Below are positions 4,020 to 58,324 of a DNA stretch of 64,000 nucleotides, piece by piece. The notes below the pieces were generated by a model. It was not told the origin of the DNA and did not search any database. It saw only the letters and a program-made list of their open reading frames with translations. This DNA is from Prosopocoilus inquinatus (lineage: Eukaryota > Arthropoda > Insecta > Coleoptera > Lucanidae), in assembly GCA_036172665.1 (NCBI GenBank), contig CM069872.1, forward strand, positions 21,989,001 to 22,053,000, given 5' to 3'. A program made the translations under genes and the position numbers. Each line of letters opens with the position of its first letter. The first letter of the stretch is position 1.

Positions 4020-4125
4020 AATACATAAGTTAACATGCCGTCATGTAGGGTTTGTCTATAGATCAAATTTTTCAGAAACAGCCTTTAGAATTGTAATCAA
4101 TTTATCTCTTACATAAAATTATCCA

Positions 4126-4459
4126 CAGATAAAATAGCGACATCTTACTATCGCTTTTTGACCTGACATTGCAGTAGGATAGACAAATTGAAGCGGGATT
4201 TGCTCCTAATAAGTCCCCCATGCAAGGCGGCCATGCTTGCTGTCAAAGCATAATGAAAAGCGATAGTAAGATGTCGCTATTTTATCTGTTCATCATTCTT
4301 ACATCGCAATTGCGAATAAATTGGGCAAGTCGTTTTTGGTCTGCAGTGGGAATGTCGAGCTACGTCTCTGCTGAGGAAGCCCCAAGCAGGGCTGAAACAG
4401 CTGTCCAAAGGCTGCTCGAGGTTTTCACTGCAATCAAAAACGATTTGCACAAAATTTTT
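4126..4459 (+). mobile_element. Hammerhead-ribozyme retroposon (retrozyme-like), copy A
   Basis: A 334-bp insertion bounded by a perfect 13-bp direct repeat, ATAAAATTATCCA (4113-4125 and 4460-4472). The left ~130 bp is an inverted partial copy of the 313-bp unit found in tandem at 56925-57975; it is followed by a sense partial copy running through the ribozyme to an AAAATTTTT end. The inverted-plus-sense layout with a long TSD suits retroposition of RNA rather than DNA transposition. The open frame through it is not conserved across unit junctions and is unlikely to be coding. Confidence 0.75.
4355..4419 (+). ncRNA. Type I hammerhead ribozyme (copy A)
   Basis: Stem I outer helix TCGAGC (4355-4360)/GCTCGA (4414-4419) and an inner helix; core CTGAGGA (4371-4377, fits CUGANGA); stem II AGCCCC...GGGCT; GAAA (4394-4397); palindromic stem III ACAGCTGT (4397-4404); C17 at 4405. 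Predicted cleavage is after 4405. The inner stem I has one C-A mismatch relative to the array units, so activity may be reduced. All core positions are present. Confidence 0.8.
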
Positions 4460-4472
4460 ATAAAATTATCCA

Positions 4473-4826
4473 TTCAGAAACCGGGTATGAGTCTACTCCT
4501 TTGTGTTTCAGTTAGTTCAAACGTATTATAGTTCTTAAGTGCCTTATCCGCGATCACATAAAATAAAATATCTGTTTTTCTATCTTCTATTTTGTGTCCA
4601 GAGCAGTATCTTTTAAATAGAATGCCTTCAAATGAACTTTGATGTGGATGATTTCATTCCATCTATATCTGAACTGTCACTTATTTCGGCTAAACAAATC
4701 TGGTGGTTCTATATCTTGATTATACTGGTCAATAAAATTTACACTTTATTTGTAACTTTTGTAAAATTAAGTTTTTCCTCTTGGCTCAATATTTGCAACG
4801 AAGAGCATTAGTCTTGTAACTGAGTT
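4473..4826. other. No gene seen between retroposon and Pao relic
   Basis: AT-rich sequence with stops in all frames. It contains no recognisable upstream part of the Pao polyprotein, which therefore begins abruptly near 4827. Confidence 0.4.
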
Positions 4827-37554: not shown

Positions 37555-38238
37555 TGTAACGGTCGGGTCTTTCCGGCGTTCTCGATGCCTTCTGTAGACG
37601 TCAATCAGGAGTCCGGGTCTGCTCGTCGATGTCCAGGTTCAGCAAAGTGAAAGACATTCAAATGTTTCAACTCCACTTTTATTCACACAACTTACTTATG
37701 TCTATATTTACAATTCCATAAAATATACTATCTCTGGACTCGGTACGGACGGTACAGTTCGGGTCGTAAAACGGTCTGGTCGGACGGATTGAATGAGACA
37801 CCCAGTCAAAGACATGTACACGAGACATCCGTGTCAGGTAAGAATGAATAGCACAGCTGTTCCGGGACAGGTACACGGGACACCCGTGTCAGGTAAGAAT
37901 GAATAGCACAGCTGTTCCGGGACAGGTACACGGGACACCCGTGTCAGGTAAGAACGAATGAGACCCCACTCAAAGACAGGTACACGAGACACCCGTGTCA
38001 GGTAAGCACTAGCGAGATAGGAGCTCGATTCACGGCGCGCGTTCGAGTCATTCACTGGCGAAATGAAAGTCTCGAGGCGTCCATGCGGGCATTTATATAG
38101 GCACGGGAGTGGAAGGGGATCCCCTACTCTAATGGCAATCCCCACCGTAACTTAAACTTTATTTGGTTTTCTAACTATTTACATTTTTAAATTAAAATAA
38201 TTCTAATACGTAACAAATAACAGTGTTACTTTGTTACA
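37555..38238 (-). repeat. 3' LTR (684 bp)
   Basis: Identical to 43348-43976 except for a few bases and one additional 55-bp repeat unit. Confidence 0.95.
37814..38008 (-). repeat. ~55-bp tandem repeats inside LTR
   Basis: Units beginning GTACACGRGACAYCCGTGTC follow one another four times here and three times in the other LTR; the length difference between the LTRs equals one unit. Each unit has a short inverted motif ACGGGACACCCGT. Confidence 0.85.
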
Positions 38239-41200
38239 CTCCCCTCATTCTTCGGCTCGTTGAGATCCCTGGTGGTGCGAAGTCGTCCTCGCGCGTCAAA
38301 ACGGAGAAGCCAGTGTTGCCCATCGAACCGAAGTTTGTACTTCCGGTAGCGTACAGCGGCTAGTTCGGGGATCTCGCCTAGTTGTTGTGTCGGGAGCTGC
38401 ACCCATATTGTCGTTTCTCCGGGACGGCGTTGGCTCAACCTGATTGGGGGAAGATCCGGCTTCTGATCTGGCAAGGGGAGTGTTTCTTTAGGCTCGGTCG
38501 TGATAGGGGGCACAGTCGTGGACTCTGGCTGCGCTTCGAGCCCCAATGCTTCCGCGAAGTCCATTTCCCATTCCTCCATGCTGACCCACGTGGGATGCGC
38601 TGGTGTTGGTTGGGGAGGAAGGATGGTTACTGGACCGGCGTTGGCTACTTGACTCCTGGTCGTGTTCCGACTTGTCGCTGCAACTGTCGTATATCCCGTT
38701 TGGTATGAATCGTTTACTCGACCTTGAGTTGCAGTTATCGGGGCCTCTGGAGCAGTGGTGTATCCCTTTCCCCTGTTCGCCAAGGTGTGAGGGGGATGAG
38801 TCCCGACGGAGTGTCCTGATGAGAAGGCTTGTTTTCTTTGAGCAGCTTCCCTTTTGGCTGAGGCGAGCAATCGGGGAGGTCCTTTTCTTTTGTGTTGTGG
38901 GTCGGGGGGCTTCTCTAATAATCGCTTGCCGCTTTCCGGTGATAATTTTTGGACGGGTTGGTTTCCTGGTGCTGGCTGTTGCACATGCGCAATCTAAACT
39001 GGTCTTCTTCTCTTTCGGTATCTCCATTCTTGCCGAAGGACTGGGTTGACTCCTATCTGGAACAATGCGCCGGGCTTTTATAGGTGCGAGGGATCGTTGT
39101 GGAAGGGTCAAGGCGTGCGCCTTTGTATTGAGAGGGGATGGCTTAAGGTGTTGAATATGTATGTGACGGACCCATCGGCCGTTTTTATCTTTCAAATCGA
39201 AAATTACAGGGGAGATGATCTTGCCTACGGTGTACGGCCCGGTAAACTTTGGAGCTAACTTGGCATTTATTTGAGCACTTTTTTTAGATAAGACATGCTC
39301 TCTTTTCCAAACTATTTCCCCTATTTTTGGCTTCCAATTGCGATGACGAAGGTTATAATGCGTTTCTTGACGCTGGAACGCCTTCGCGAGATTAATGCGC
39401 ACAAGTTTAACGGCATCGTCTAAGTCTTGTTGTCTTTTTTCTGGGTTACGGACGTCTCGATTTCTCATGTTATGATGTGGTGTCTGGAGTTCGCGTCCGT
39501 TGTTCAGGTATGCCGGGGTGTAGCCACTTGCTTCATGACGGGCGGTGTTGAATGCGAAACGTATTTCGTAGATTCGCTCATCCCAATTGCGTTGATTTCT
39601 CTGTGTAAACTGCGCAATCATGGTTTTAACTACTCGGTTAACTCTCTCTACAGGGTTGCAGTGAGGCGCATAGGGTGGAGTGCGACGGTGATTGATGCCG
39701 TATGTGGCTAACATCTGTGTGAACTGTTGGCTGATGAATTGTTTGCCATTATCGGATATTATAGTTGCTGGACATGCGTGTCTTAAAACAACCTCCTCTC
39801 TTACGATTCCGGCAACTGCTTCTCCCGTAGCTTTTCGGAGCGGTTTTAGTTCAATCCATTTGGTAAACAGATCTTGCATGACGAGAAGCCAGGTGTGACC
39901 CTTGCGAGAACGAGGTAATGGACCAACCAAATCCACTGATACCGTGTGCCATGGATCGTTAGAAGCGTTTGGATGTAGGAATCCGCCTGTTCGTTGCTGG
40001 GATACTTTGTAGCGGTTACAAACATCACAATTTCGGACATAGGTGGCGGTTTCCTTGAACATTCCTGGCCAGTAGAATTTCTGCGCTAAACGGACTATTG
40101 TTTTTGCGATCCCGAGATGACCTGCCGTCGGATCATCATGGAATTGGCGGAGCAACTCTCTTCGTTCGTTGATAGGAATGCATCGTTTCCACTCGTCTCC
40201 TGGCACATGCTCATTGTAGTTCATTGTGCTCATGACGTGCCGGTATAACTTGCCATTGCGAATACAGTAGTCCGGGTTTTCGGTAGGGTCTGCCCTTACT
40301 TTCTGGAAGTTTTTAGAATACCAGGAGCATCTTGGTCGGCGTTGAATAACACAGATAACTTCGTCTGATTCGGCGGGTAAAGGTTGTCTGGAGAGTGCAT
40401 CAGGTACGGTATTTAAGATTCCACGACGATATTGTACGTCGAAATCAAATTGCTGGAGTTCCAGGGCCCATCTTGCAAGTCTTCCGGTCGGGTTGTCAAT
40501 GGTTTGTAGCCATTTCAGAGACTGGTGATCGGTAATTACCGTAAATGAATAACCTTCTAAATAGGCCTTCATCTTCCGAACTCCCCATAATACGGCTAGA
40601 CACTCTTTTTCTGTTGCGCTATAGTTGCGCTCTGTCTTGCTAAATGTGTGGCTAGCATAGGCAATTACACGTTCCTTCAGTTCAAGGTTCTGTGATAGGA
40701 CTACTCCTATTCCGATATCGCTGGCATCAGTTTGTAAAAAGAATCTTTGCGAGAAATCTGGACAGGTTAGTATTGGGGACTCGGTTAGTTTCGTTTTTAT
40801 TGTCTGAAAGGCATTTTCTTCTTCCGGGCCCCATGTCCATTTTGCGTGTTTTTGGGTGAGTTTTGTCAACGGTTTTACGAATAAAACGACGGTACCACGA
40901 AGCCATGCCGTGAAATCGCCGAATCTCTTTAACGTTTTTCGGTGGTGACATAGTAGTTATAGCGGATACTTTCTCTGGATCAGTCCGAATCCCGTCTTGA
41001 TCCACGATATGGCCAAGATAGCGTAAGCTATCAACACAGAACTTACACTTGTCTGGATTGATTTTTAGCCTAGCTTCGCGAAGACGGCGGAAGACTTCTT
41101 GTAAGTGTTGGATGTGTTCTTTCAAGGTTTTGCTGACTACAATTATATCGTCCAGATAGACAAACGCATGTGGTTCTAATTCCGGGCCTATCACGTGATC

Positions 41201-42238
41201 AAGCAATCTCTGGAAAGTAGCGGGTGTGGAATGCAATCCAAAAGGCATTACCTTGAACTGCATAAGGCCCTTTCCTGGTACGGTAAAAGCAGTGATTGGT
41301 TTGCTTTCTGGAGAAAGGGGAACTTGCCAGTAGCCGTTTTTCAAATCCAAAGTAGAAAGAAACTTGGCACCTCTTAACTTGTCTAGAGTGGCTTGAACTT
41401 GCGGTAACGGGTAAGCATCTTTTTCTGTTTTCCCATTGACTTTTCTGAAGTCAACGCAGAAACGGGGTTTACCATCCCTTTTTGGGATAATAACAATTGG
41501 AGAGCTCCACGGACTTTGTGCTGCCTCAATTACGCCTTCCTTTTCCATCTTCTCTACTTCGGTATTTATAATGGCTTGCATGGCTGGATTACGAGGTCGG
41601 TAACGCTGTTTTATCGGAGTGGCATTAATAAGTTTTATGTGGTGCTGAATGTAATGTGTTGGTCCGGTGACGTTATCAAACTTTTCCAGTTCTTCTTTGA
41701 TGAAATTTTTGAATTCCTTTTTCTGGCTCAAAATATTGGGATCTGTGTGATTGAATATCATATGACAGTTATTATTTCTGGGTAGCTTCGGGGAAGGAGG
41801 TAGTATGGTAAGTTGAAGTTTGCTAATTAGATCCATGCCAAACAGTAGCGGTACTTGTAAGCGTGTTATTACAGAGAAGTTATGCCGGTATATTTCGCCT
41901 ATTAATTTAAATGTCACGGGTAGGGTTCCTTGTATCGGGATTTCTCTTCCATCAGCTAGACGTACCGATTCTTCTGTAGCTTCACGACTTTGACCATTTC
42001 TTCTGCAAAGTTTAATTACTTTGCCACTAATATATGATCTTTCAGATCCGGTATCTAGTAATGCCGAAAATATTTTGTCGGCAATTTTAATTTCAATAAA
42101 CGGACGGGGTTTGAAGAGGATTTTTATTTTCGGGGCCGGTCCTGGTTTCTTTGCTGGCCGGCCCCGTTGCCGTTTTCCGAACGTCTCTGGCATACACAAT
42201 CTTTTGTAAGGGTACCATCGCGTCCACAGTAAGAGCAA
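38226..42238 (-). pseudogene. pol: Gypsy Pol with two frameshifts
   Basis: The first frame (42238-40727) has a protease SALLDTGSERS, RT blocks KPRFCVDFRKVN and FVYLDDIIV, and ends after SWYRRFIR where a one-base shift occurs (~40880). The second frame (40869-38488) continues with RNase H (LQTDASDIGIG, VITDHQSLKWL) and integrase (HDDPTAGHLG...CDVCNRYK; SVDLVGPLPRS; IISDNGKQF; NPVERVNRVVK). A second shift near 38990 moves to a C-terminal tail, 38984-38226, ending in DLNEPKNEG. The -1 overlap with gag is 42124-42238. Catalytic residues are all present; only the two shifts disable it. Confidence 0.94.
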
Positions 42239-43173
42239 AATTTCTTGAACGGCCCTCTACAGTTCATGCGTGTATGGCCCCTTTGTTTGCATCGCCAACA
42301 ATGGGTATTTCGGTCCCATGTTGAAACCATGCTTGTTACGCTTGAGTTGTTGATTTTTCGTTCGCTTTTTACGAGAGACGGTGTGGTTTCTTGATTCAGC
42401 TTAAGAATATGTTCGTACTCTCTGGCTCGGTCTATTAGGTCATTGATCGACGTCAAATCTCTCCGCTGTATGTACAGCATATATTTCGGGAGCATGTTTT
42501 TATATGTTCGATTAAGCTGCTCTTCGGCTGTAAAACTTCCGGATCTTCGCATCAATGTAAGTACGTCCGTTGCATATCTTAAAAACGTTTCATTTTCTTT
42601 TTGCAATCGGTCTCGTATCTGTTGTTCAAGCTGCTCCTGTAGAACTCGTGGCACGTAATATTGCTTAAGACATTTGACAAAATCTTGCCAGTTGGACCAC
42701 GAAGCTTTGTTATTACGGTACCATAAAAGTGGTTCTCCCCGAAGAAGTTCAGGCAGTCCTCGTAAGACTTGAGTTTCGGTGAGTTGATAGCTCTCTCTTA
42801 GTTCTTCAACTCTTTCCAAGAAAGATAGCGGATCTTTCCCATCAAAATGACAACCCCATTTACGGATCTGGTTGATTGCTTTTGTAAAATCCATGTTTTC
42901 CGGATTATGTTCGGCAACTGGTGGTGGTTGTTCTGCGGTCTGGGCGGGATTCATTTCTAATTGTTGAGTAACATAAACTTCTGCGTTTCCTTGCAAGGCT
43001 TTTCCTAGTCTTCGTCTAAGTTCCTCAACAGTTCCAGTCGTATCCAAATTGTTAGATTTTAACTCTTCTACAAGTTGTTCTCTTCTTAGGCCGTGTATCC
43101 ACCGTTTCATATTAGCTCGGACACTTCTTTTAAAGTTAATGCTTTTCCGCAAATAGTTCACGAGCGTACACAA
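42124..43173 (-). CDS. gag: Gypsy Gag (349 aa)
   Basis: An uninterrupted frame with a SAP-like start (LRREQLVEELKSNNLDTTGTVEELRRRL), the capsid block FDGKDPLSFLERVEELRESYQL, LLRGEPLLWYRNNK and QDFVKCLKQYYVPR, then zinc knuckles CWRCKQRGHTRMNC and CSYCGRDGTLTKDC. It overlaps pol by 115 bp in the frame expected for -1 frameshifting; I did not find a canonical slippery heptamer. It would form the virus-like particle shell and bind the genomic RNA. Confidence 0.94.
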   Translation of the reverse strand: MCTLVNYLRKSINFKRSVRANMKRWIHGLRREQLVEELKSNNLDTTGTVEELRRRLGKALQGNAEVYVTQQLEMNPAQTAEQPPPVAEHNPENMDFTKAINQIRKWGCHFDGKDPLSFLERVEELRESYQLTETQVLRGLPELLRGEPLLWYRNNKASWSNWQDFVKCLKQYYVPRVLQEQLEQQIRDRLQKENETFLRYATDVLTLMRRSGSFTAEEQLNRTYKNMLPKYMLYIQRRDLTSINDLIDRAREYEHILKLNQETTPSLVKSERKINNSSVTSMVSTWDRNTHCWRCKQRGHTRMNCRGPFKKFCSYCGRDGTLTKDCVCQRRSENGNGAGQQRNQDRPRK

Positions 43174-43347: not shown

Positions 43348-43976
43348 TGTAACGGTCGGGTCTTTCCGGCGTTCTCGATGCCTTCTGTAGACGTCAATTA
43401 GGAGTCCGGGTCTGCTCGTCGGTGTCCAGGTTCAGCAAAGTGAAAGACATTCAAATGTTTTAACTCCACTTTTATTCACACAACTTACTTATGTCTATAT
43501 TTACAATTCCATAAAATATACTATCTCTGGACTCGGTACGGACGGTACAGTTCGGGTCGTAAAACGGTCTGGTCGGACGGATTGAATGAGACACCCAGTC
43601 AAAGACATGTACACGAGACACCCGTGTCAGGTAAGAATGAATAGCACAGCTGTTCCGGGACAGGTACACGGGACACCCGTGTCAGGTAAGAACGAATGAG
43701 ACCCCACTCAAAGACAGGTACACGAGACACCCGTGTCAGGTAAGCACTAGCGAGATAGGAGCTCGATTCACGGCGCGCGTTCGAGTCATTCACTGGCGAA
43801 ATGAAAGTCTCGAGGCGTCCATGCGGGCATTTATATAGGCACGGGAGTGGAAGGGGATCCCCTACTCTAATGGCAATCCCCACCGTAACTTAAACTTTAT
43901 TTGGTTTTCTAACTACTTACATTTTTAAATTAAAATAATTCTAATACGTAACAAATAACAGTGTTACTTTGTTACA
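43348..43976 (-). repeat. 5' LTR (629 bp)
   Basis: Begins TGTAACGG and ends GTTACA on the plus strand. It has three ~55-bp repeat units instead of four. Confidence 0.95.
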
Positions 43977-44862: not shown

Positions 44863-46095
44863 CTCGTTTGGTAGCATACGATTGACACCTTGTAGTGGAA
44901 CTTCTTCTACCTGGCGATCTTCTGTCTTGCTTTTAATGCTAGCTAATATATTCTTACATAAATATAGCGTGATACAAACATTCAATGTGATGATTATTAA
45001 GGCGGTGGCGGAGAAATGGGTTACATTCAATATATGGTATAGAGGCACGTTGTCATCTAAGGATGCGGCTTCTTGTTTTAGATTTTCTATATCATCTAAA
45101 TGTTTTAATTGTAATTTTACAGTTTTTCTGGGTGTATAATAAGTCACTTTTATAGGAGAAAATGTGAAATTATTAACAATGTTTTCAAATGTTTGTTCTT
45201 CTGATGATTGACTTACAATTATTTTCCGAAGAAAAAAGGACATTGTTCCTAACCTTAGTATAATTAATTTTATGCGAACATTCCTCAACGATTTCTATGC
45301 TACATTTACACGACACTAACACTTTTCCGCCTCTTAATTGCGTATATAATTTGTAGTTATTATTAATCGAGGCAAACGTGCAATTGTCACTAGTTATAAG
45401 GGAATATTCACTTGCTTGAAGTTTATCAGAACAAATAGTTTGTTTCTCGATCACTTTACAATCTTCGTTGGTCCATAATTCTCTACGAGCGTTGTTCACG
45501 TGATACTTCATTGGTGGAAGGAGAACATTATCCTCAGCGTTTGGTATGGGATAGATTCTCGAGTATTGGTATAGGGAAGGGTTTAATATGGGTATGTACA
45601 GAATACACGTTACGGTGTCTTTTACCGAAACTACTTGGAATTTAGAAAATTCTAACACTTTAAGAATGTGAATGGAATCTAAATCTGGTAGTTCGTTTCG
45701 ATTATAAATTAATTTTAAGTGGTTGATAATTTCGATCAATTCGGAAATGGCTATAGTTTCTAAATTTGTAATTTCTGAAGATGCTAGCAAGATTGTTCTT
45801 TCAATACTGTGGAGGATATCGAGAAGTTTCATGCTTAGATAATTATTATATTGAATCGCGATATTTACTTCAAGAACATCACTCATTTCCTCTAAGGCCT
45901 GGACTGATGTTTTTAAATTCTCTTGAATTTTTGATAAATCTTTCTAATACCTTTCTGTAATATGATTCGCAAAGGAAGTGTGCTTACTTATCTGTTTGAC
46001 TATGTTTTCCTTGTTTTGATACAGGAGTTTTATGTTGTCGTTGATTTCGTTCAGGTCATCATTGTCGGGTTTACCTGTTATGTATTTTATTATAG

Positions 46096-46507
46096 AAAAA
46101 TTTTGTGCAAATCGTTTTTGATTGCAGTGAAAACCTCGAGCAGCCTCTGGACAGCTGTTTCAGCCCTGCTTGGGGCTTCTTCGGCAGAAACGTAGCTCGA
46201 CATTCCCACTGCAGACCAAAAACGACTTGCCCAATTTATTCGCATTTGCGATGTAAGAATGATGAACAGATAAAATAGCGACATCTTACTATCGCTTTTT
46301 GACCTGACATTGCAGTAGGAGGTTTTCACTGCAATCAAAAACGATTTGCACAAAATTTTTCTAAATCTTTCATTAATGCTTTGACAGCAAGCATGGCCGC
46401 CTTGCATGGAGGATTTATTAGGAGCAAATCCCGCTTCAATTTGTCTATCCTACTGCAATGTCAGGTCAAAAAGCGATAGTAAGATGTCGCTATTTTGTCT
46501 GTTCATC
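46096..46507 (-). mobile_element. Hammerhead-ribozyme retroposon (retrozyme-like), copy B
   Basis: A 412-bp insertion in the env relic, flanked by the 12-bp direct repeat ATTTTATTATAG (46084-46095, 46508-46519). It starts with an inverted copy of the 313-bp family (46096-46321) and continues with a sense copy ending TGTTCATC (46322-46507). The flanking env codons continue across the insertion once it and one repeat are ignored, which confirms the target-site duplication. Confidence 0.85.
46136..46200 (-). ncRNA. Hammerhead ribozyme, core-mutated (copy B)
   Basis: All hammerhead elements are present on the minus strand, but the core reads CCGAAGA (46184-46178) instead of CUGANGA. The U4-to-C change at an invariant position should abolish or strongly reduce cleavage. 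Confidence 0.75.
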
Positions 46508-46929
46508 ATTTTATTATAGTTCCTAAAATGTTTACTAGAGCACGCTTGGAACGGTATTTGAATTTCGCTAATTGACTTTCAATTTCGTTACAATTTCCTC
46601 TTAGAACATCAACCAACTGTTCGTTTGTAGTATTAACGCTTTTTGAATCTAAGATGACTAGGTTATTTAATATCTTAAAGTAACTTATCTCTATCATACT
46701 AATATTAAAATAAAAATAAAACTTATGCGAGTGATCGTATAGTTTCGTGGTCCCAAGACTTTGGGTATAATAGCCATTAGTCCTAATTGTTTCTACGCGA
46801 AGGCCCTGGCTGTGGCTCGTCAGGATCCACCTGTAAAGAAAAACTTTTCTTGACGCGTTTTATTTTTCTTTTATGAGTATTTGCGTGTCTGTTCGAGCTT
46901 TCCCTTATACCCTCAATTTTATTTTTGTT

Positions 46930-55975: not shown

Positions 55976-56924
55976 CTGTTTTGACACATTATACATAATA
56001 GCAAAGACAAAGAATCTAGGAACATGTGACACTTAATAAAATAAAAATGGAACGAAACTTAGTTCGAAAAAGTGGCTCCACCTGGATTTTGGACACAGCA
56101 AAGGCGGGAGTTTTAAACTTTAATGTTTCAAATAAATACTTATTTCAAAAGTTATAAAGCAATAATATGCGTTTTAAATATTCGCAGTTTATTTTAATTG
56201 ACAGATACAAAAACGAGAAGCACATTTCCTTTAAAAATACCAATAACTCACTGCATAAATCAGGTTCAATAATTATTCTGTGATTTTTGGGAGGATTCGC
56301 CTTGATAATCACCCTTTAAACGATTCCTTGTCTTTTATATTTGTTGTTGCTGCAACAATCACTGAACAGCGAAGTTGGACCTGGATTTTATATACAGCTA
56401 TAAGGTCAATCAGAATATCGGCCGGTATCTTTGAATTGTCATTAATTTTTCACCATTGTCTCCATTTACAATAAAACGTATTGTTTTCTCTGTTCCTTTC
56501 CCTTTTTTTAAAAGTATTACAGTTACGGTGTACGTTTTAATAGAAGTAAAATATTTTTACCTGAGTCCGGGCACGTTGACAGTTTTTCGGTGCAGTAAGT
56601 GGGAGTCAAATTTTGTCCATGCAGCGATACCCGATACAAATTTTATGAATTTCACTAACAGTTGCATAGCAAATTATGAAAACAAACTAAACACGAAATG
56701 CACTAAAAGCATTTATACAAATGCATTTCAAAAACGGTGGGAATATTCAGACTACATTAAACATAAGTTATGACATAAACATAAATGTCATTAAATTTTT
56801 TCGTACTTTTGTTTCAGTCAGACATGGAATTATTCGATTGGTTGTTAGTAAAACACGAGGAGAAATGAATTCGGTACAATGTTCCTAGATTCAAGTGCCG
56901 AATCTTCTTAGATCCTTTATCTTT
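55976..56924. other. No gene supported
   Basis: Open stretches at 56456-56773 (+) show no domain. AT-rich, directly left of the retrozyme array. Confidence 0.35.
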
Positions 56925-57096
56925 GCCGCCTTGCATGGGGGACTCATTAGGAGCAAATCCCGCTTCAATTTGTCTATCCTACTGCAATGTCAGGTCAAAA
57001 AGCGATAGTAAGATGTCGCTATTTTATATGTTCATCATTCTTACATCGCATTTGCGAATAAATTGGGCAAGTCGTTTTTGGTCTGCAGTGGGAATG

Positions 57097-57161
57097 TCGA
57101 GCTACGTTTCTGCTGAAGAAGCCCCAAGCAGGGCTGAAACAGCTGTCCAGAGGCTGCTCGA
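57097..57161 (+). ncRNA. Type I hammerhead ribozyme, unit 1
   Basis: Stem I outer helix TCGAGC (57097-57102)/GCTCGA (57156-57161), inner helix TTTCTG (57107-57112)/CAGAGG (57148-57153); core CTGAAGA (57113-57119); stem II AGCCC (57120-57124)/GGGCT (57131-57135) with a 6-nt loop; GAAA (57136-57139); stem III palindrome ACAGCTGT (57139-57146); C17 at 57147. Cleavage predicted between 57147 and 57148. The internal loop in stem I (57103-57106, 57154-57155) is placed for the usual loop-loop contact with loop II. Confidence 0.9.
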
Positions 57162-57409
57162 GGTTCTCACTGCAATCAAAAACGATTTGCACAAAATTTT
57201 TTCTAAAATCTTTCATTATGCTTTGACAGCAAGCATGGCCGCCTTGCATGGGGGACTCATTAGGAGCAAATCCCGCTTCAATTTGTCTATCCTACTGCAA
57301 TGTTAGGTCAAAAAGCGATAGTAAGATGTCGCTATTTTATATGTTCATCATTCTTACATCGCATTTGCGAATAAATTGGGCAAGTCGTTTTTGGTCTGCA
57401 GTGGGAATG

Positions 57410-57474
57410 TCGAGCTACGTTTCTGCTGAAGAAGCCCCAAGCAGGGCTGAAACAGCTGTCCAGAGGCTGCTCGA
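57410..57474 (+). ncRNA. Type I hammerhead ribozyme, unit 2
   Basis: Same sequence 313 bp on: core 57426-57432, cleavage after 57460. Confidence 0.9.
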
Positions 57475-57722
57475 GGTTCTCACTGCAATCAAAAACGATT
57501 TGCACAAAAATTTTTCTAAAATCTTTCATTATGCTTTGACAGCAAGCATGGCCGCCTTGCATGGGGGACTCATTAGGAGCAAATCCCGCTTCAATTTGTC
57601 TATCCTACTGCAATGTTAGGTCAAAAAGCGATAATAAGATGTCGCTATTTTATATGTTCATCATTCTTACATCGCATTTGCGAATAAATTGGGCAAGTCG
57701 TTTTTGGTCTGCAGTGGGAATG

Positions 57723-57787
57723 TCTAGCTACGTTTCTGCTGAAGAAGCCCCAAGCAGGGCTGAAACAGCTGTCCAGAGGCTGCTCGA
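57723..57787 (+). ncRNA. Type I hammerhead ribozyme, unit 3
   Basis: Same structure: core 57739-57745, cleavage after 57773. One G-to-T change in the outer stem I (TCTAGC) costs a pair. Confidence 0.88.
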
Positions 57788-58324
57788 GGTTCTCACTGCA
57801 ATCAAAAACGATTTGCACAAAAATTTTTCTAAAATCTTTCATTATGCTTTGACAGCAAGCATGGCCGCCTTGCATGGGGGACTCATTAGGAGCAAATCCC
57901 GCTTCAATTTGTCTATCCTACTGCAATGTCAGGTCAAAAAGCGATAGTAAGATGTCGCTATTTTATATGTTCATCATAATAGTATGATAATAATTGTATC
58001 CGCTAAGGTTGCCATGGTTTCTCGAAAGATGGTTCAGTTCAAACATTAAACGACTTATGCCCGTTTGCACCGTTTGTGAATTAAGAAATGCTTATATAAG
58101 AATTACTTAAAGTTAAGAAATGTTTAAGTATCTGTCCTATTGCACCGCACATGATCTCACCAATACTTTACAAAGCTATTCTTTAGCTCGGCATGCATTT
58201 GGGAACATCGCACAATTTAGTAATTTTATACACTTGTATTGGTACTGGTTGGTGAACTAACAGTTTATGTGCATTTTGTTCAATTTTGTTTTTCGTATTT
58301 GTTGTGTTAACCTTAATTATAGAA

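Follow-up and report, generated by a model that had tools for sequence, protein, structure and literature searches.

Metazoan non-LTR retrozymes, as described by Cervera and de la Pena (2020, PMC7229834), consist of tandem units of 170-400 nt that carry a type I hammerhead ribozyme and lack LTRs, with target duplications of more than 4 bp and an RNA circle predicted to be self-paired. How these RNAs are primed and which enzyme copies them was considered open in that paper, with LINEs or Penelope-like elements (PLEs) as candidates, and the copying enzyme was still open, with the same candidates, in a 2024 review (PMC11722881). PLEs are themselves associated with hammerheads; they form head-to-head copies with short target duplications, start internally at two adjacent sites and may carry a "tail" at one end (PMC11167929; rotifer Penelope, PMC3846280). 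In rotifers the head-to-head copies have the tail on one arm and duplications of 8-10 bp, and in 2013 self-priming was thought to explain such copies best (PMC3846280). More recently, a purified Anolis PLE was described as cutting and extending both strands of an AT-rich target, starting internally at two adjacent sites (PMC11167929). Hammerheads are also known from satellites, such as pDo500 of Dolichopoda cave crickets (PMC2837043, PMC2808323) and those of newts and axolotl, in which a weak stem III, a palindromic loop (HHR_Amex1) and better cleavage as dimers are described (PMC7229834).

Judged by its sequence, the repeat described here looks like a retrozyme. It lies in the window, by which we mean the whole 64,000-nucleotide stretch of DNA analysed, and the first-pass annotation had read it as a type I hammerhead of an animal retrozyme. 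This is supported as the best reading of the unit: unit size, tandem copies, absence of LTRs and target duplications above 4 bp all fit, as does a two-pair stem III closed by a palindromic tetraloop. Two pairs and a tetraloop are also described for the axolotl HHR_Amex2 (PMC7229834). Compared by description, it resembles pDo500 in being a repeat family with a hammerhead in a probable insect genome, and the newt and axolotl satellites in its stem III, although amphibian units measure 330-350 bp rather than 312-313 bp. In contrast to the retrozymes of the 2020 paper, in whose main text the word "inverted" does not occur, most copies examined here are arranged head-to-head, start at two set sites and are flanked by duplications of about 12 bp.

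In the window, the repeat forms a head-to-tail array of 3.4 copies with a 99% match and, as annotated, a period of 313 bp; elsewhere the unit is mostly 312 bp long (60 of 76 distinct complete units). The array (locus label L001) is a one-armed insertion, and neither an inverted arm nor a target duplication was found when both were looked for at this locus. Its features are as follows, with unit positions (u) counted from u1 = 56925.

56925..57977, + strand: tandem array of 3.4 units of 313 bp (repeat detection, alignment)
57085..57173, + strand: type I hammerhead with extended stem I, unit 1 (descriptor, shuffles, fold)
57398-57486 and 57711-57799, + strand: hammerhead repeats of the later units
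57113..57119, + strand: core C3 U4 G5 A6 N7 G8 A9 = CTGAAGA
57120..57135, + strand: stem II AGCCC/GGGCT with loop CAAGCA; pair 10.1-11.1 is A-U
57139..57146, + strand: stem III palindrome ACAGCTGT, with two pairs and tetraloop AGCU in the monomer and eight pairs possible between two units
57147, + strand: C17, with cleavage predicted 3' of it

The annotated bases of the invariant hammerhead positions were confirmed throughout, namely CTGAAGA at 57113-57119, stem II at 57120-57124/57131-57135, GAAA at 57136-57139, T at 57146 and C at 57147, and recur at +313 and +626; each complete unit thus reads CTGAAGA (u189-195), AGCCC-CAAGCA-GGGCT (u196-211), GAAA (u212-215), CAGCTG (u216-221) and TC (u222-223). 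Stem I, annotated as a two-part helix of 12 pairs with an internal loop, does have two parts and a loop, with a slightly higher pair count: the fold gives seven pairs at the core and, beyond the internal loop, six more that run on into an 11-pair helix. Most hammerheads have G-C at pair 10.1-11.1, adjoining G12, so that the A-U of this unit is unusual. Open frames do run across the units (56869-57947, sense; 145, 130 and 135 aa from stop to stop), but as the frame shifts with the 313-bp length, we rejected the repeat as a protein gene and regard these frames as spurious. GC content is 0.379 within 56001-58000, i.e., under 50%. Elsewhere in the window, two arrays of a related 55-bp tandem repeat (37811-38006 and 43584-43744) flank gypsy-like ORFs (38226-43173) and may perhaps lie inside LTRs; the named matches of the gypsy ORF among the best 120 of 2,679 are all insects except one Trichinella, which indirectly favours an insect as host.

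Only three sites in the window, which are the three tandem units, satisfy a strict type I descriptor that demands a fixed core, a stem III and no fewer than four pairs in each of stems II and I; in 1,500 windows shuffled with dinucleotides preserved (96 Mb, both strands), three positions in all did so. With a looser pattern, the window had 12 matches against about four expected, a number reached by one of 100 shuffles. The covariance-model check put forward in the first-pass annotation counts against the motif, with no Rfam match in the window at the gathering threshold; under permissive settings, the best hammerhead was HH9 (RF02275) at 14.5 bits (E 3.4) against a cut-off of 52. The gathering score is a detection threshold, and our placement of the motif relies on its core and fold rather than on Rfam membership. 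This genome also contains hammerheads that are closer to the standard form: among the best candidates scored genome-wide, RF00163 (Hammerhead_1) gave eight listed matches, seven of them above the cut-off, with none of 14 control genomes matched, and RF02275 gave two, both below the cut-off. The eight Hammerhead_1 places may be candidates for further retrozyme families.

The family is abundant. In the 650-Mb assembly, a 31-mer that spans the 3' half of the hammerhead had 20,788 matches with at most two mismatches, and its reversed control had none. The core is intact in 161 of 168 hammerhead copies, taken from 37 sequence entries (36 loci and the window), and the other seven include one deletion. 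Across these 168 copies, the core shows 0.36 substitution types per position and its unpaired neighbours 0.39. Substitution types thus gave no signal of selection on the ribozyme core within the family, and selective constraint among copies was dropped as an argument, since the core varies no less than its unpaired neighbours. In stems, 13 of 42 changes kept the pair; the expectation is 34 of 180 if changes are random and 34 of 60 if they are transitions. One double change, in L042, preserves a stem I pair. The older array of L052 is marked within the hammerhead by changes in loop II, by U184-G228 to C-G, by C17 to A and by G-C to G-U. Hammerhead rules tolerate changes of these kinds, and their location at permitted places was counted in favour of the retrozyme reading. 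Within the same locus, L052:4494-5673 is a tandem of a short head-to-head copy with A at H17, and it has the appearance of a satellite arising through duplication of DNA; a rearranged circle was rejected as its source because, by eye, the units are joined by a copy of the target duplication, as in a local tandem duplication of DNA.

The absence of both an Rfam match at threshold and a selection signal is what would be expected if the repeat were functionless satellite DNA that happens to contain a hammerhead-like string. Classical satellites form long head-to-tail arrays without target duplications. The copies examined here are instead dispersed insertions with a median length of 974 bp (n = 49), most of them with target duplications, and together with the rarity of descriptor matches in shuffled windows and the presence of a hammerhead and head-to-head arms in a second family of different sequence (see below), this makes such an origin very unlikely.

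The loci come from 40 scored candidates (of 420 at first look), which are the best-scoring ones and lean to well-preserved copies, together with insertions in their surroundings and the window. L009, L012, L013, L015, L016, L019, L021, L025, L027, L028, L030 and L033, which are places covered by other or longer stretches, were left out of the count. Also omitted were L004 and L010, which reproduce the array of L002 together with its flanks on a different contig, and L054 was merged with L046. The insertion ends define two start sites, A and B, which together with the two further copies in the window are listed here.

57022..57032, + strand: start site A, u98-108, TTTTATATGTT (insertion ends)
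57335-57345, 57648-57658 and 57961-57971, + strand: further copies of site A, the last near the array end
57196..57211, + strand: start site B, u272-287, AATTTTTTCTAAAAT region (insertion ends, which vary within and around the site)
4117..4474: second copy, with head-to-head arms that end at A on the left and at B on the right; target duplication of 13 bp, ATAAAATTATCCA; N7 = G
46089..46510: third copy, with head-to-head arms that end at B on the left and at A on the right; target duplication of 12 bp, ATTTTATTATAG

Alignment of the unit to the loci gave 49 insertions, of which 42 have two arms in head-to-head orientation, each with its sense 3' end on the outside; the remaining seven, including the window array, are one-armed. 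No LTR structure was found in the 49. In 39 of the 42, one outer end falls within u95-125, the region of site A (typically u108), and the opposite one within u262-302, the region of site B (mostly near u277-289), a bias that differs strongly from equal and independent use of the two sites (39 of 41, p 4e-10). Both other copies in the window obey this rule, although neither matches the descriptor: 4117-4474 carries G226A in stem I, and 46089-46510 carries T190C, a mutation of core position 4. The three exceptions are L006 and L017, in which a target duplication was sought and not found, and C7:14477181-14487361 (L054 and L046), a 10.2-kb palindromic array. Its inverted flanks on both sides led us to reject a true A/A insertion and to read it as a palindromic duplication, flanks included, or an assembly artefact. 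A sample that was not selected by score gave a compatible picture, in that neighbours within 400 bp among the first 100 places of the 31-mer were arranged 17 times as -+, five times as -- and never as +- or ++.

Comparison of the two flanks of each insertion gave a longest common sequence of 11 bp or more in 31 of 46 cases, against 29 of 2,070 mismatched flank pairs, and of exactly 12 bp, the most common length, in 17 of 46 against six of 2,070; a few A/B copies, e.g., L002 and L008, were searched for a target duplication and have none. When 37 A/B insertions were re-aligned on the A-end motif, six lacked the motif, four lacked an adjoining duplication of at least 8 bp and 27 had both. Most of these 27 duplications are 12 bp (n = 12) or 13 bp (n = 7) long, followed by 10 bp (n = 4) and by 8, 9, 15 and 17 bp (one each), and 20 of them directly abut the A motif (three after a motif shorter by two bases). 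The target DNA is AT-rich; among the 27 insertions, position 2 after the motif is A in 20, position 3 is T in 18 and position 4 is again A in 20. A DNA transposon or foldback element moved by a transposase would likewise give inverted arms and duplicate the target over a nearly constant length. The two termini are, however, unlike in sequence rather than inverted repeats, and the ends vary by several bases; moreover, arm lengths in the 31 simple insertions range from 25 to 2,041 nt, with no difference between A and B arms (Wilcoxon p 0.21), and no clear clustering of the inversion points was evident (Rayleigh p 0.27, 0.07 and 0.12). We regard a transposase as the least probable of the agents considered, to the point of being scarcely credible. 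Self-priming on a palindrome was likewise rejected as the cause of the inversion, since only L002 and L020, of 31 simple insertions, have the same unit position on either side of the inversion point; in the other 29 the two positions differ.

Twin priming by a LINE yields head-to-head inversions with target duplications and has to be weighed as a source of this anatomy. In ordinary twin priming, which gives 5' inversions, one end lies at the 3' end of the RNA, usually poly(A), and the second start is scattered along the RNA. Here, 42 of 49 copies are inverted, both ends fall into two set internal regions in 39 of 42, and no poly(A) end was seen in the listed flanks. Since a resident PLE follows the same rule in 15 of 15 insertions, as described next, we consider a LINE a very improbable copier.

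A motif scan for a PLE endonuclease in 57 sequences (307,529 bases) found its coding sequence in L003 and L005; in L003, the retrozyme is inserted inside the reverse transcriptase frame of the PLE, with a shared flank of 14 bp. By Pfam, the resident PLE contains RVT_1 (reverse transcriptase) and GIY-YIG domains, neither enzyme being encoded by the 313-bp unit, which is too short to hold them. Of 2,232 GIY-YIG candidates genome-wide, 150 matches were scored, most with the same score, and among these, 46 of 47 endonuclease neighbour pairs less than 10 kb apart are -+, i.e., head-to-head, with one --. We examined the outer ends of 15 of the 46 pairs, five of them short (L061-L065) and ten taken roughly down the list (L066-L085). 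In all 15, one arm stops at ~...CACTATTTATT and the other runs 33-41 nt further to ~...TTTGTGATT, so that the PLE "tail" is present at exactly one end; shared flanks of 9-15 bp were seen in all 15 as well, the comparison with mismatched pairs having been made for the retrozyme flanks only. An exact 24-mer at the first PLE start site has 773 matches in the genome, and neighbours within 1 kb among its first 100 places are 21 -+, one ++ and one --. The family is young, and its hammerhead (L061) has the core CUGAAGA and the palindrome UACGUA.

The resident PLE thus obeys the same insertion rule as the retrozyme: its copies are head-to-head and end at two start sites, a different one on each side. 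This shared pattern makes the PLE machinery, priming both nicked strands on circular or multimeric RNA, the likely copier of the retrozyme. The first-pass annotation, whose reading of the repeat is otherwise supported, had overlooked that the repeat inserts head-to-head with ends at two sites and that the resident PLE shows the same pattern. A search for start-site sequence shared by the unit (A and B) and the PLE 3' regions gave only 9-base matches (E 3.3), and in contrast to the 33-41 nt of the PLE, sites A and B lie 136-144 nt apart.

A second, more diverged retrozyme family (L055, ~2298-2643, and L056, ~1621-2302) has a unit of about 307 bp with the core CTGATGAGGTCT..AGACCGAAAC. Its sequence differs from that of the 313-bp family and its hammerhead core is CUGAUGA, and yet its arms are also head-to-head, with one site used at each end and the two sites about 28 nt apart; L056 is flanked, by eye, by TTTACATTTAT on both sides. 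Counted from the predicted cleavage, the start sites lie 47 and 84 nt away in the PLE and ~51-58 and 78-86 nt away in the second family. In the 313-bp family, site B lies at 54-62 nt and site A at 198 nt, or at about 89 when counted along a loop of the fold. The predicted fold of the circle places A and B in one open loop with three hairpins between them, and with these hairpins looped out, the two sites are 27-35 steps apart, suggestively close to the 33-41 nt that separate the PLE start sites.

When the unit is folded as an RNA circle, its predicted minimum free energy is -112.3 kcal/mol; compared with 200 shuffles, this corresponds to a z of -7.35. In the most stable predicted fold of the hammerhead region (-48.2 kcal/mol), GCUG, which contains C3-U4-G5, pairs with CAGC of the stem III palindrome and blocks the core; the active monomer fold is predicted at -42.2, so that the blocked fold is favoured by 6 kcal/mol in the window unit. 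The core-blocked fold is also the predicted minimum in 57 of 60 distinct circles sampled from the 76. The palindrome ACAGCUGU is predicted at -11.1 when paired with a second copy and at +2.4 as a hairpin. Because the palindromes of two units can form eight pairs, we infer that units would cleave mainly as dimers within multimers, and because GCUG pairs with CAGC in the same molecule, a monomer circle would lock itself and thereby be protected from cleavage. In contrast, the 2020 paper predicts a free hammerhead in most metazoan circles and, for the animal circles it treats, expects blocking by means other than self-pairing (PMC7229834). For the 313-bp unit, self-pairing would suffice, and the self-locked fold offers a possible answer to the question of how a circle avoids cutting itself open.

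The template need not be a circle. According to the in vitro study of the Anolis PLE, mainly unprocessed RNA is used, hammerhead mutants insert normally, and start sites are alike on both strands (PMC11167929). These results imply that an uncleaved multimer could serve as template; the strict rule of one site per strand is not seen there. The arms of the 313-bp family cross the cleavage site, which a multimer permits as well as a circle does. A PLE could therefore mobilise the unit from uncleaved multimeric transcripts, with the hammerhead and the circle as by-products. The energy of the unit circle, far below that of shuffles, and the predicted block of the core in a lone unit, as expected of a circle that must persist, argue for the circle instead, and we hold the uncleaved multimer to be possible while leaning against it.

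What we observe directly is the motif, its copy number, the head-to-head arms, the A/B ends, the duplications of mostly 12-13 bp in AT-rich DNA and the matching pattern of the resident PLE. From these we propose, with good though not full confidence, that the unit is a retrozyme-type element whose predicted self-cut circular transcripts are copied by a PLE reverse transcriptase into both nicked target strands, each from its own RNA site. Transcripts of the unit are predicted to cleave themselves at the hammerhead and to close into circles. Two endonuclease cuts about 12 bp apart in the target would each supply a primer, with one cDNA presumably beginning at A and the other at B. Both cDNAs would then travel a variable distance round the template, past one unit where it is closed or repeated, and the joining of their ends would produce the head-to-head insert. 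Against this explanation stand the lack of an Rfam match at threshold, the A-U at 10.1-11.1, the missing selection signal, the stable monomer fold that blocks the core, the in vitro results with the Anolis PLE, the lack of clear sequence similarity of A and B to the PLE 3' regions, and the departure of L006 and L017 from the A/B rule.

A broader proposal, on which we are evenly divided, is that animal retrozymes are parasites of PLEs. The PLE enzyme, probably a dimer, would read one hammerhead-made circle from both nicked strands, each monomer starting ~50 or ~85 nt downstream of the ribozyme when counted through the fold. The PLE "tail" would then be the footprint of this two-site start, and the stem III palindrome would act as a switch that cuts multimers as dimers and locks the core in the finished circle.

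We found no report of head-to-head retrozymes in the literature searched, most subscription papers lying outside that search, and we claim no priority on this point. A two-site start is a simple reading of both the PLE "tail" and the head-to-head PLE copies. With this retrozyme and a young PLE following one strict and unusual rule of insertion within a single genome, the question of which enzyme copies animal retrozymes becomes directly testable.
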